Shown here piece by piece: positions 7,735 through 15,711 of a DNA stretch of 41,149 nucleotides. The translations under genes were made by a program, and so were the position numbers. The notes under the pieces are model-generated. The model worked only from the letters and a program-made list of their open reading frames with translations. It did no database searches and had not been told where the DNA came from. The DNA lies in assembly GCA_020346185.1 (NCBI GenBank), contig CP070775.1, positions 3,146,335 to 3,187,483 on the forward strand. Direction: 5' to 3'. Position 1 is the stretch's first letter, and the number at the start of each line of letters is the position of its first letter. This DNA comes from Betaproteobacteria bacterium (lineage in GTDB: Bacteria; Pseudomonadota; Gammaproteobacteria; Burkholderiales; Eutrophovitaceae).

Positions 7735-8547
7735 ATGGCGAAGCCGCCTGCGAAATCGGAAAGTGGGATACGCACGCAGCGTGATTCGTGGAGTGCCTTG
7801 CGCCGTTTCACATCGGCGCGTATCGGTCTTGGCCGGGCCGGCGGCAGCATTCCAACGCGAGAGCTACTCGATTTTCAACTGGCGCACGCGCGGGCGCGCG
7901 ATGCGGTGAAGCACGCCTTCGACATTCCTGCGTTCGGTGAAGAACTGCGCCTACGGCAGATCGATTCGCTGGCACTCGGCAGTGCTGCCGGCGACCGTCA
8001 CACGTTTATCCAGCGGCCCGACCTGGGACGCATCCTTGACGAAGAGTCGAAAAGCCTGCTGCAATCCCGGGCCAGCAATCAGGCATGGGACATCGTGTTC
8101 GTCGTTGCCGACGGCCTGTCGGCGCTTGCGGTCGAGCGCCACGCGCTGCCGGTGATCGAAATGACGCGCGTTCATCTTTTGCGCGAAGGCTGGCGCATTG
8201 CACCTTATTGCCTGGTCAGCCAGGGACGCGTCGCAATCGGCGATGAGATCGGTGCAATGCTTGCGGCGCAACTGAGTGTGGTACTGATCGGCGAGCGACC
8301 CGGGTTGAGTTCGCCCGATAGCCTGGGTGCATATCTTACGTTTGATCCTCTACCGGGCCGCAGCAATGCTGAGCGCAACTGCGTTTCCAACGTCCGCCCG
8401 GAAGGTCTGAATTACGCCGCGGCGGCATTCAAACTACTGCACTTGATGCGACAGGCACACGCGCGGCAACTTTCCGGCATTGCGCTCAAAGAAGACGCCC
8501 CACTGCCCGCGCCGGCGGAATTACAGAAGTTGTTTCCAGAACGATAA
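7735..8547 (+). CDS. eutC: ethanolamine ammonia-lyase, light chain
   Basis: A 270-residue small subunit that helps bind adenosylcobalamin. Diagnostic segments include the N-terminal LRRFTSARIGLGRAG, DIVFVVADGLSALAVE, ALPVIEMTRV, the highly conserved VLIGERPGLSSPDSLGAYL, and RNCVSNVRPEGL before a C-terminal helix. It begins 11 nt after eutB, so translation is likely coupled, with only a weak ribosome-binding site. The pair is complete and appears intact. The following gene encodes an unrelated secreted protein, so the operon probably ends here. Confidence 0.95.
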   Translation: MAKPPAKSESGIRTQRDSWSALRRFTSARIGLGRAGGSIPTRELLDFQLAHARARDAVKHAFDIPAFGEELRLRQIDSLALGSAAGDRHTFIQRPDLGRILDEESKSLLQSRASNQAWDIVFVVADGLSALAVERHALPVIEMTRVHLLREGWRIAPYCLVSQGRVAIGDEIGAMLAAQLSVVLIGERPGLSSPDSLGAYLTFDPLPGRSNAERNCVSNVRPEGLNYAAAAFKLLHLMRQAHARQLSGIALKEDAPLPAPAELQKLFPER

Positions 8548-9038: not shown

Positions 9039-10252
9039 CTGAGGTTCCCTGGCATTTCGCTGTGGTTCAAGAGCGGGTTGAGCGTTGTTGTTTGGTGAAA
9101 ACTGCCCATGCATGGCATTGCTGCGCGCAACCAGCGCGTTGGTTCAAGGCGCACTGGTGCGCCTGTCAGGTCTCGCGCTTTGCTTGAGTGGCGCCACTAC
9201 TCTTAAGCACCAGATCAAGAGTGTGGATCGGCTGCTTGGCAACGCGGGGCTGTAAGGTGCGCGCCGGGACATCTACCATGTACTGGCGCATCGCTGGCTT
9301 AACGGCGTTGAGCACATTCTGGTCTTGGTCAATTGGTCTGATCTGAGCAAAATCAGCACGTGCAACTGTTGCGTGCCAGTGTGGCCGTTGATGGTCGTAG
9401 TCTGACGTTGTACGAAGAAGCGCACGCGCAAGAATATTTGGGTAATCCGAAGCTGCCTTGCGCTCGGTGCAATCGCTGCTGCCTGCTTCGTGCAAAGTTG
9501 TTGCCATGACCGATGCGGGCTTTCACGCGCCTTGGTTCAAGGCCGTGAGCAAGCTGGGCTGGTGTTACATTGGCCGCCTGCGTGGGCGAAATCGTGTGTT
9601 GTTGCAATTCGACCCATTCTGGCGTCCGGCACGCGCGTCGTACCGGCGTGCCACAAGCAAAGCGCTTGTCCCGGGAGCAGGCAGATACGCGTACAGCAAC
9701 CCGGTAAATGTGCGTGTGGTGCTGGCCAAGCGCCAGGATAAACAACGCTGGCAATTGACCATATTTGGCGCCAGAGCGGCTTCGCGAAAGAGCGAGAAGA
9801 ACGCGAGGCGGGCACGCGAGCCGTGGTTACTTGCCACAAGTCCTGCGCTGTCACATCTGGCGGTCAAGAGCATTGTTGCGCGCTATCGCCAGAGGATGGG
9901 CATCGAGCAATCGTTTCGCAATAACAAGCACCTGCGGGTGGGTATGGGCTTTGAGCTCACGCGCTCAAGAAGTGCACAGCATTTGAACATCTTGCTGCTC
10001 ATCTTGCATCTGGCCGCGTTCAAGCAACGACTAATCGGAGACAGTGCCAAAGAAAGCCAGCTCGAACTGCAGTTTAGTGCAACACGGCGCAAGGACCGGC
10101 GGGAAGTATCTGTACTGACCCTGGTTCGGCGCATCCTCGACGAACCGCCTCATTTGCTAAAGCAGTTGCGGCCTATACAAGCCATCGCGGCACTCGGAGA
10201 ACAGGCTATCGATGCCTATGCGATTGCCATATAAAATACGGGGAAGCCTCAG
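9039..10252 (+). mobile_element. decayed IS10-group (IS4 family) insertion sequence
   Basis: The element is about 1214 bp long. The left end CTGAGGTTCCCTGGCATTT (9039) and the reverse complement of the right end, CTGAGGCTTCCCCGTATTT (ending 10252), form imperfect inverted repeats that begin CTGAG like IS10. The encoded transposase is IS4-family but broken. Flanking 9-mers GGTGAACCT and GGTCAGGCC match at 5 of 9 positions, so a target duplication is at best degraded. The right end stops 2 bp before the cheR-type stop codon. Confidence 0.8.
9112..10234 (+). pseudogene. IS4-family (IS10-like) transposase, broken
   Basis: The N-terminal part reads ALVQGALVRLSG and KHQIKSVDRLLGNAGL, then a TAA at 9253-9255. 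The same frame continues with IYHVLAHRW and VLVNWSDL. The frame shifts near 9350-9360 to LLRASVAVDGRSLTLYE, and again near 9450 to the open C-terminal part (9458-10234). The first catalytic Asp (normally DWSD) is Asn. The second (MTDAGF) and the Y-R-E-K motif (YRQRMGIEQ) are intact. It cannot make an active enzyme. The C-terminal 258 residues could be translated alone but lack the first catalytic residue. Confidence 0.85.
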
Positions 10253-10254
10253 GG

Positions 10255-11097
10255 TCAGGCCCCTTGCGGATCAACGACATCGTTGTTTTTCCGATAAATG
10301 CGTTGTTCATCGAACCACACGGAAAGCCCTTCTGCTCCTTCCGGCAAGTTCTCGTGGATGCCGATCACGAGTGACGCGCCGTCATGCATGGCGTTAACGA
10401 TGCGCTTTAAGTGCTCGAGCTGAAGTGCTTCGTCGAAGTAAGTGAATACGAGATTACGGCAGAGCACGAGATCAAAACGCCTGCCGGGTCGCTCCTGGCG
10501 AATATCCTGCTCCAGGAGTTGGACACAGCGCTTGTATTCCGGTTTGAGACAATAGTTATCGCGTTCGAGCTCGAAGGCCCGGTTAAGCCAGCTTTCTGGC
10601 ATGTTTTTCAAAGAGCCAAATTTGTAGCAGGCGTCGCCGGCACGCCGCATCATATTGGGATCGGCATCGGTGGCGACAATATCGATGCTTAGCCTGGGAA
10701 ATTTTGACTGCAATTCCGTGGCCCACAGGACCGCAAGCGTATAAGGCTCTTCACCGGATCCGCAGCCAGCACTCCAAACACGCAACCTCGTGTCGCCACG
10801 CTCGAGCGCTTGTTGAGCCAGTGCCGGCAGTACCCGCTGCTGCAAGGTTACGAAAACGCCTTGATCACGATAAAAGCGTGAGATTGTGATTCGGCAAAGG
10901 GCATCGAGCTCTACCCATTCATCGGCATGATCTTGCAGATAGGCTTCGTATTCGTCGATACCTGCCAGGCGGAGGTTTCGCATACGAGCGTCGACGCGCT
11001 TGCATACTTGTTTTCGCACCTTGCAAAACCCCGGCCAGCGCATGTGCAATTGCGGCAAGGCCCATTGCAGAAACCGCACGCACTGCTCGTCTTTCAT
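10255..11097 (-). CDS. CheR-type protein-glutamate methyltransferase
   Basis: This 280-residue protein has the CheR layout: a small helical N-terminal domain (1-75) and a SAM-binding Rossmann domain with WSAGCGSGEEPYTLA, IVATDADPN and FDLVLCRNLVFTYFD. CheR proteins methylate glutamates of chemoreceptors. No receptor, CheA, CheB or flagellar gene is nearby, and no C-terminal TPR region is present, so it may act in an orphan or non-motility signalling pathway. AGGAGG lies 4 nt before the ATG at 11097 and decides the start over an ATG seven codons upstream. The IS element ends 2 bp from its stop codon. Confidence 0.85.
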   Translation of the reverse strand: MKDEQCVRFLQWALPQLHMRWPGFCKVRKQVCKRVDARMRNLRLAGIDEYEAYLQDHADEWVELDALCRITISRFYRDQGVFVTLQQRVLPALAQQALERGDTRLRVWSAGCGSGEEPYTLAVLWATELQSKFPRLSIDIVATDADPNMMRRAGDACYKFGSLKNMPESWLNRAFELERDNYCLKPEYKRCVQLLEQDIRQERPGRRFDLVLCRNLVFTYFDEALQLEHLKRIVNAMHDGASLVIGIHENLPEGAEGLSVWFDEQRIYRKNNDVVDPQGA

Positions 11098-14707: not shown

Positions 14708-14790
14708 GTGATTCGCTTAGTCAAATTAGTGGATAAACTCAATTTGTTTGCCGACGGGCGAATCAATCAGGCAACGCTGGAGACAAATGC

Positions 14791-15711
14791 ATGACGACAG
14801 AAATTATCAACCGCCGCAAATTCCTCGCATTGATATCCGCTGCGGGCCTTGCCGGACTCGCGCCGGGAATCTCGCTCGCGCGAGAGCAGATGCCGAAGCG
14901 GCGGATCCCCGGTACCAATGAGTATTTGCCGATTATCGGCCTTGGATCGACCAAGCCGGTAGGGCAGATTGCAGACAGAGGCACTGCGCCGATCGCCAGC
15001 GTGTTGCGTACGCTTGTCGAGAATGGCGGCAGTGTTGTCGATACCTGGCCCAGGAACCAGCCGAACGACGAAGGATTCGGGCGCGTGATCAATGAGCCGG
15101 ACCTGCGCGATGCCCTGTTTGTCACCAGCAAAATAGACCGGACCGGCAAGCAAGCGGGGATTGACCAGTTCCGGCAAACACAGCGCCTCTATCAGCGCAA
15201 CACCCTGGATTTGTTGCAGGTGTTCAACCTCACCGACGTCGAAACACAGTGGTCCACTCTCATGGACTTAAAAGCAGCGGGTGAAGCGCGCTACATAGGC
15301 GTCACAGTATCGAGCCAGGGCCTCTACGATCAGCTCGCAACTTTTGTCAGACGTGAGCAACCGGACTTCGTGCAGGTCAACTACTCGATCACCGAACGCG
15401 GTGCCGAGCAACGCATGTTGCCGATGCTGCAGGACAAGGGGATCGGCGTCATCATCAATCGGCCGTTCATGAACGGTGATTACTTCCGCAAGATCGGCGA
15501 TCGTCCTCTACCGGAATGGGCAGCCGAGTTCGACTGCGAGAGCTGGGCACAGTTTTCATTGAAGTACATCCTGCCGCACCCAGCGATCACGTGCGTGCTG
15601 ACCGAGACCACCAAGCCGAAGCACATGGCCGAGAACGCGCGTGCAGCATTCGGGCGTATGCCGGATCAAGCTCAGCGTGCGCGGATGCGCGATGTGATCA
15701 GTTCAGTCTGA
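14791..15711 (+). CDS. Tat-exported aldo/keto-reductase-like protein lacking catalytic Tyr and His
   Basis: The 306-residue protein starts with a twin-arginine-type leader (INRRKFLALISAAGLAG) followed by an AKR TIM barrel. D84 and K114 (FVTSKI) of the usual Asp-Tyr-Lys-His tetrad are present. The Tyr segment, normally MYG or VYG plus an acidic residue, reads PRNQPNDEG, and the His normally found in LLQVHN is F145 (LLQVFNL). The C-terminal part keeps the family pattern, with FVQVNYSITERGAEQRMLP, GVIINRPFMNGDYF and PEWAAEFDCESWAQF. It is either a pseudoenzyme that may bind a ligand or cofactor, or one with altered chemistry. It follows the NHL-repeat gene and may share its envelope role. Confidence 0.85.
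   Translation: MTTEIINRRKFLALISAAGLAGLAPGISLAREQMPKRRIPGTNEYLPIIGLGSTKPVGQIADRGTAPIASVLRTLVENGGSVVDTWPRNQPNDEGFGRVINEPDLRDALFVTSKIDRTGKQAGIDQFRQTQRLYQRNTLDLLQVFNLTDVETQWSTLMDLKAAGEARYIGVTVSSQGLYDQLATFVRREQPDFVQVNYSITERGAEQRMLPMLQDKGIGVIINRPFMNGDYFRKIGDRPLPEWAAEFDCESWAQFSLKYILPHPAITCVLTETTKPKHMAENARAAFGRMPDQAQRARMRDVISSV

Follow-up and report, generated by a model that had tools for sequence, protein, structure and literature searches.

What does a leader-bearing protein of the aldo/keto-reductase (AKR) fold do once the tyrosine and histidine of its catalytic site have been lost, and is such a gene still in use? The question is raised by a gene in a window of 41,149 nucleotides (the whole stretch of DNA analysed, from a Betaproteobacteria bacterium). 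To follow it through the family, we tabulated 252 non-redundant sequences, 19 of which are degenerate (both residues absent) and 233 others; counts of rows refer to this table. The features of the gene are as follows, all on the plus strand.

14779-14783, plus strand: GGAGA, probable ribosome-binding site, 7 nt upstream of the ATG (found by eye).
14791-15711, plus strand: gene for the twin-arginine (Tat)-led AKR-fold protein without catalytic Tyr and His, an uninterrupted ORF of 306 aa.
14791-14880, plus strand: twin-arginine leader, residues 1-30, with NRRKFL as residues 7-12 (model TIGR01409).
15040-15042, plus strand: codon of Asp84, the retained catalytic-site Asp (D in 19/19 degenerate and 233/233 other rows).
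15049-15075, plus strand: loop PRNQPNDEG, residues 87-95, in place of the Tyr loop, with Asn89 in the Tyr column.
15130-15132, plus strand: codon of Lys114, the retained catalytic-site Lys (degenerate rows: K 15/19, Y 4/19).
15223-15225, plus strand: codon of Phe145, in the catalytic His column (19 degenerate rows: F 11, R 3, E 2, M 2, V 1).
15466-15486, plus strand: clade motif F226-M-N-G-D-Y-F232 in the loop after strand 7 (19/19 degenerate, 0/233 others).
15598-15609, plus strand: clade motif L270-T-E-T273 after strand 8, at the expected AKR 2'-phosphate/adenosine site (19/19 versus 0/233).

A previous sequence-only reading had described the gene as open over its full length, with a leader and a ribosome-binding site, and all three are in place. 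The leader (NRRKFLALISAAGLAG) scored 14.9 bits over residues 6-27 with the NCBIfam Tat leader model, a near miss of the cut-off of 16.7. The arginine pair was found in all 19 degenerate rows and in 185 of the 207 complete rows that could be assessed, 26 of the 233 being too short for judgement. Tat targeting is likely on these sequence features and the leader suggests export, with cleavage after Ala30 as a guess. Between this gene and the NHL propeller gene upstream, an inverted repeat was seen by eye (GATTCGC at 14710-14716, GCGAATC at 14758-14764).

The protein belongs to the AKR superfamily by fold and by descent. PF00248 (Aldo_ket_red) was the sole Pfam match of the ORF (74.6 bits, cut-off 24), and an AlphaFold model built from 17 clade sequences formed a complete barrel with a mean pLDDT of 89.8 and a pTM of 0.84, only residues 1-4 and 19-30 having a pLDDT below 50. 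The top solved matches of this model were AKRs by both Foldseek and VIA-align, and VIA-align superimposed 3erp_A on 270 residues (Z 29.6, rmsd 2.4). The barrel that had been judged intact from the letters is thus recovered in the model as an AKR-like (beta/alpha)8 barrel behind a leader. Asp84 lies at the end of strand 2, Lys114 within strand 3 and Phe145 at the end of strand 4, which we take to be the places expected for the AKR tetrad.

The catalytic columns were assigned in an alignment of 30 family sequences (from 32 matches in 25 of 100 genomes, 30 of them available as loci, with the window and three genus orthologs included). All 26 sequences outside the window's ortholog group had Tyr in the Asn89 column, and 25 of them had His in the Phe145 column, the other being Trp (L030). 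This alignment bore out the residue assignments made earlier, namely that Asp84 and Lys114 are kept, that PRNQPNDEG has taken the place of the Tyr loop and that Phe145 has taken that of the His. Two of the residues needed for a competent AKR, Asp and Lys, are present, and the other two are missing. In the larger table, the His column of the 233 other rows contained H in 227 and W in six (QAWNV in L030, L252, L254, L255, L257 and L260, which keep the Tyr and are otherwise complete Tat-type AKRs).

The gene was present in all four genomes examined of the genus, each time without Tyr and His, and the three orthologs were 92, 79 and 71% identical to the window protein. Among the four species the dN/dS ratios (NG86) were 0.065-0.18, at high dS values of 0.75-2.2 for the genus pairs. 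As all genus orthologs are without both residues, these ratios indicate that the gene is under purifying selection in the absence of Tyr and His, that is, the loss of catalytic residues is conserved as in a pseudoenzyme. Whether close relatives share both substitutions had been posed as a check, and they do, in 4/4 genus genomes and in 19/19 members of the wider group, so the double loss is not due to chance. A Tyr and His placed elsewhere by alignment, or stop codons in relatives, had been named as results that would speak against the idea; neither residue occurs in those columns in any degenerate member, and all 19 rows are free of internal stops. Four matches did carry stops (G145, G308, G176 and G447), and these are complete-tetrad relatives. 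In two degenerate rows, L088 and L089, the residue just ahead of the lost Tyr column is a Tyr (DTTPYPEEN and DTTPYSEEN), and the His is replaced by Met.

Across the table, loss of the two residues and changes in the expected cofactor region go together. All 19 degenerate rows are without Tyr and His and have both F-[MI]-N-G-x-Y-F and L-T-E-T; all 233 others have Tyr, Lys and Asp and neither motif string, three of them (L276, L220 and L230) being gapped at the LTET place. A scan of named genomes with a genus profile gave 17 loci, and since these were found via the patterns FMNG[DE]YF and DL[LM]QVFNL, their possession of the FMNG motif or of the Phe is in part a product of the search. LTET was not among the search patterns. 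Profile searches of the order (399 genomes), the class (369) and the phylum (398) contributed two further degenerate rows, both via the class search (L095 and L118), and the other matches listed by these searches were also retrieved for the table. By label, the 17 loci are from Gammaproteobacteria (5), Woeseiaceae (3), Rhodospirillaceae (3), Betaproteobacteria (2), and one each from Burkholderiales, Proteobacteria, Bacteroidetes and Pirellulaceae. The contigs with the Bacteroidetes (L080) and Pirellulaceae (L086) copies measure 6.2 and 4.3 kb, and mis-binning or transfer may account for these labels. Duplicates (L077, L078 and L083 among them) were left out of the 252, as were matches below 120 bits or spanning less than about 180 residues, including L093, a degenerate member of partial length in which FMNGEYF and VLTET were seen, and L158, with a complete tetrad and one stop. 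Also outside the 252 is L290 (G061:C6:87458-88381), with a complete tetrad and IPGT.

The degenerate rows fall into two subclades. Subclade A has 15 rows, including the window, and keeps both Asp84 and Lys114. Subclade B (L091, L092, L095 and L118) has Tyr for Lys114 and a Tyr loop three residues shorter, and keeps both motifs; the model of L091 has alternating strands and helices in a barrel-like arrangement (pLDDT 87.3). In a tree of 73 complete and 19 degenerate rows built without the trait columns, the two states separated almost fully, with subclade B as one branch (SH-aLRT 100) and subclade A as another (87). The degenerate state required two changes on the full tree; without one long outgroup row it required one, with all 19 rows on one side of a branch with a support of only 44, and a single origin is no more than a possibility. 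The neighbours of the window gene on the tree were those of G003 and G002, followed by Woeseiaceae and other gammaproteobacterial MAGs. Among the matches listed for the order search, the degenerate form was found only in the four genus genomes of the 399, a restricted distribution from which horizontal transfer of the gene appears likely.

In AKRs, the loop face at the carboxy ends of the strands holds the cofactor and substrate. Compared with the 233 others, the sites of subclade A that are fixed or newly conserved in these strand-end loops, on the pocket face, are Ser53, Lys55, Val173, Met227, Asn228, Tyr231, Leu270 (the last before its loop), Thr271 and Glu272, and those away from the pocket face are Pro35, Gly64, Leu75, Trp154 and Phe185. 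Tyr231, Thr271 and Glu272 are found in 19/19 degenerate rows, and Lys55 in 15/15 of subclade A. The complete rows have Leu at position 231 in 213 of 233 cases where the clade has Tyr, and P-A/G-T where it has T-E-T. Gln195, Asn223, Thr273, His278 and Asn282 are kept in all 19 rows, with Glu or Asp at 281. The mean entropy in subclade A was 0.75 bits for the pocket face, 1.08 for the opposite face, 1.18 for the helices and 0.72 for the barrel strands; random sets of 15 complete members gave 1.14, 1.60, 1.59 and 0.96, respectively. The pocket is thus a kept and constrained face and not a special one, as complete members show a similarly low entropy relative to their helices.

The acid in the second motif lies at the side of the groove where NADP-type AKRs have a base. 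In an alignment with 3wbw, the Lys of IPKS is matched by Glu272, the Ser by Thr273, the Arg by His278 and the Asn by Asn282 (the 3wbw motif aligned with Glu272, Thr273 and Asn282 is IPKSVNPKRLAENL), and in an alignment with 4wgh, Glu272 again falls on a Lys. We take Lys262, Ser263, Arg268 and Asn272 of aldose reductase to be the holders of the NADP 2'-phosphate and adenine, and the clade columns 272-282 to correspond to them. The Lys and Arg of the NADP-type IPKS...R pattern are therefore replaced by Glu272 and His278 at the expected 2'-phosphate site. The complete exported relatives are likewise without the Lys (Ala or Gly), and mostly have His at the Arg place, so the absence of IPKS...R alone does not set the clade apart; what is new to the clade in the alignment is the acid at 272. 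Position 173, presumably the amide-binding Asn of AKRs, is Val, or Arg in four degenerate rows, and nicotinamide binding itself may have been lost.

We consider that the clade probably does not represent reductases in decay but a conserved binding protein or an altered enzyme. Few enzyme folds have been studied as thoroughly as that of the AKRs, in which removal of the proton donor should abolish the reaction; with the Tyr donor and the carbonyl-orienting His both missing, no AKR reaction would be expected here. In the reading that we prefer, the protein would be an ancient exported paralogue of the Tat-type AKRs that gave up carbonyl reduction while its cofactor cleft was re-tuned. It would fold in the cytoplasm and, given its leader, then be exported by Tat. 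The dinucleotide groove is well conserved, with most of the expected adenine- and amide-end residues kept and Glu272, Thr271, Tyr231 and the M-N-G turn gained, and it would bind a ligand, making the protein a periplasmic binding, carrier or sensor protein. The acid at the phosphate-binding place perhaps favours NAD over NADP, a weak argument as the complete members are without the 2'-phosphate Lys too. That the protein is not a carbonyl reductase and acts mainly by binding is, as judged from its sequence, a proposition with about equal weight for and against. The identity of the ligand is much less certain, and the most specific version, a periplasmic AKR-fold nucleotide-binding pseudoenzyme that keeps its groove, has Glu272 on the 2'-phosphate side, has dropped catalysis and, outside the cytoplasm, carries or senses NAD or some related extracellular nucleotide, is rather unlikely to be right in all of these respects. 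The earlier proposal of an envelope pseudoenzyme that binds a ligand or partner agrees with the conserved loss and the Tat-type leader and can be extended from one gene to a clade; the particular partner that it suggested, the NHL propeller, was not upheld (see below).

Further observations weaken the binding reading. Tyr231, Glu272 and the Lys55 of subclade A would suit a new active site equally well, 15 of the 19 members keep both Asp84 and Lys114, and none of the gene neighbours is constant enough to suggest a role.

The same residues thus lead to the alternative that survives best, a tentative one, in which a new active site has formed on the same face from Tyr231, Glu272, Thr271, Lys55 and the kept Asp84 and Lys114, for example that of a lyase, a hydrolase or a cofactor-bound redox shuttle. 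Several of the gains on the catalytic face are polar and invariant, and Tyr231 might be part of a chemistry. However, the residues common to all 19 sit in the two loops that follow strands 7 and 8, where the cofactor of AKRs is held, away from the substrate carbonyl, and both Lys55 and Lys114 are absent from the four members of subclade B. Nor is any reaction hinted at by the neighbours. ORF clustering around 18 degenerate genes gave no convincingly recurrent partner; apart from AKRs, only a loosely defined SDR-like set extended beyond four loci (6 loci), and the others covered 2 to 4 loci, mostly of close relatives. These included a GSDH-like cluster in L084, L085 and L087 (Pfam run on the L087 ORF) and a DUF6152-like cluster in L084, L089 and L093 (Pfam run on one L089 ORF); the neighbours of L095 and L118 were inspected by eye only.

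Alternatively, the protein could still be a weak or specialized reductase, in which a bound cofactor works with a proton from water or the substrate and makes Tyr and His dispensable. The presence of Asp84 and Lys114 in 15 of the 19 rows, and of several expected cofactor-contact columns in all 19, would fit this. It is nevertheless improbable, as the four relatives that have also lost the Lys and shortened the Tyr loop keep both motifs, and the expected amide site is occupied by Val173 or Arg173.

We give a similarly low probability to regulation of a complete exported AKR sibling, the kind of role that many pseudoenzymes have. A complete family member was also found in 5 of the 6 whole genomes with a degenerate copy, namely G001-G003, G403 (L151) and G568 (L153 and L289), and the order search gave a family match at E 1e-40 in 97 of 395 genomes outside the genus. 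The counts are few, however, four of the six genomes being of one genus, and a second family member was not found in the window's own genome (rated 90% complete) at E 1e-20. The family profile gave 389 bits for the window's gene and only 42-82 bits for the other five PF00248 genes of that genome. In G001, G002 and G003, the degenerate and complete genes were not within the same fetched region. The window's genome also encodes a second leader-bearing AKR of another type, L049 (G000:C1:2245943-2246506, minus strand), with a cysteine-rich ferredoxin-like tail (CQPGCNVCAASCP) and, by eye, an apparent Tyr, Lys and His.

The upstream NHL propeller, which the sequence-only reading had put forward as a possible partner, is a very improbable one. 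In the window, the AKR gene has an HbpS-like gene and the NHL gene on its upstream side and, on the other strand, an Ldh_2 gene downstream; the NHL and AKR genes are co-directional and 83 bp apart. This adjacency is confined to the window. In G002 their order is reversed and about 7 kb lie between them, the 19.9 kb examined from G001 yielded no NHL gene, and in G003 an insert separates the two, with a 44-aa piece of the NHL 3' end still upstream of the AKR gene. Outside the genus, clustering of the ORFs of the 18 degenerate loci placed no NHL ORF of this kind with the degenerate gene. The G003 locus (L031, G003:C1:2155000-2174900) has two inserts, each flanked by a duplicate of the 3' end of the adjoining gene. 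The NHL duplicate is 132 nt (10606-10737 and 15540-15671, 81% identical, 4.9 kb apart) and the AKR duplicate 115 nt (8173-8287 and 9128-9242, 98%, 1 kb apart) around a kinase-like ORF recognized by eye, which looks like insertion with restoration of the gene ends.

Decay or a sequencing error in one genome, suggested by the absence of two of the four catalytic residues, was rejected and has a negligible probability, as 19 different sequences share the losses in open frames and dN/dS is low in the genus, in line with the earlier view that this is not simple decay.

Among known systems, the closest are the complete Tat-led AKRs (233 rows, e.g., L005, L026 and L027), which we take to be the CDD group AKR_PA4992-like. 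They resemble the window protein in fold family, length, RR leader, Asp84 and Lys114, and those of the first 100-genome search are 34-47% identical to it. Unlike the clade, they have the Tyr throughout, His in all but the six Trp rows, P-A/G-T, and Leu231 in most rows. In this data set, F-[MI]-N-G-x-Y-F together with LTET separates the clade from these complete exported relatives, and annotation of its members as reductases could thereby be avoided.

The glucose-fructose oxidoreductase of Zymomonas is exported with its cofactor tightly bound, and this enzyme and the aldose-aldose oxidoreductases presumably belong to the Gfo/Idh/MocA family, which has another fold. They are like the window protein in being oxidoreductases with a Tat signal, the Zymomonas enzyme being periplasmic, as described in PMC4628093. 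In contrast to the proposed pseudoenzyme, they are active enzymes.

KidO of Caulobacter parallels our reading in another respect: it is an NADH-binding homologue of oxidoreductases with a regulatory role, and it binds FtsZ (PMC7083601). It differs in acting in the cytoplasm, as implied by its FtsZ binding, whereas the window protein has a Tat leader and is of another sequence family, with a weak match to the NCBIfam KidO model (17.8 bits, cut-off 244). The Kv-beta channel subunits are AKR barrels that act via a bound pyridine nucleotide, and the review PMC9317154 reports a catalytic Tyr and slow activity for them. Their solved chains match the window model structurally with Z about 27, while the Tyr that they have is lacking at that place in the clade.

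Searches of the open-access literature listed no paper on Tat-exported AKR pseudoenzymes. As we compare them, KidO, the Kv-beta subunits and the Tat-signal oxidoreductases are precedents that each cover a single part of the reading. The clade, which occurs in several proteobacterial lineages, has lost the Tyr, kept the gene and its leader and rebuilt the groove in the same way throughout; it offers a natural test case for the capabilities of an AKR barrel beyond reduction.
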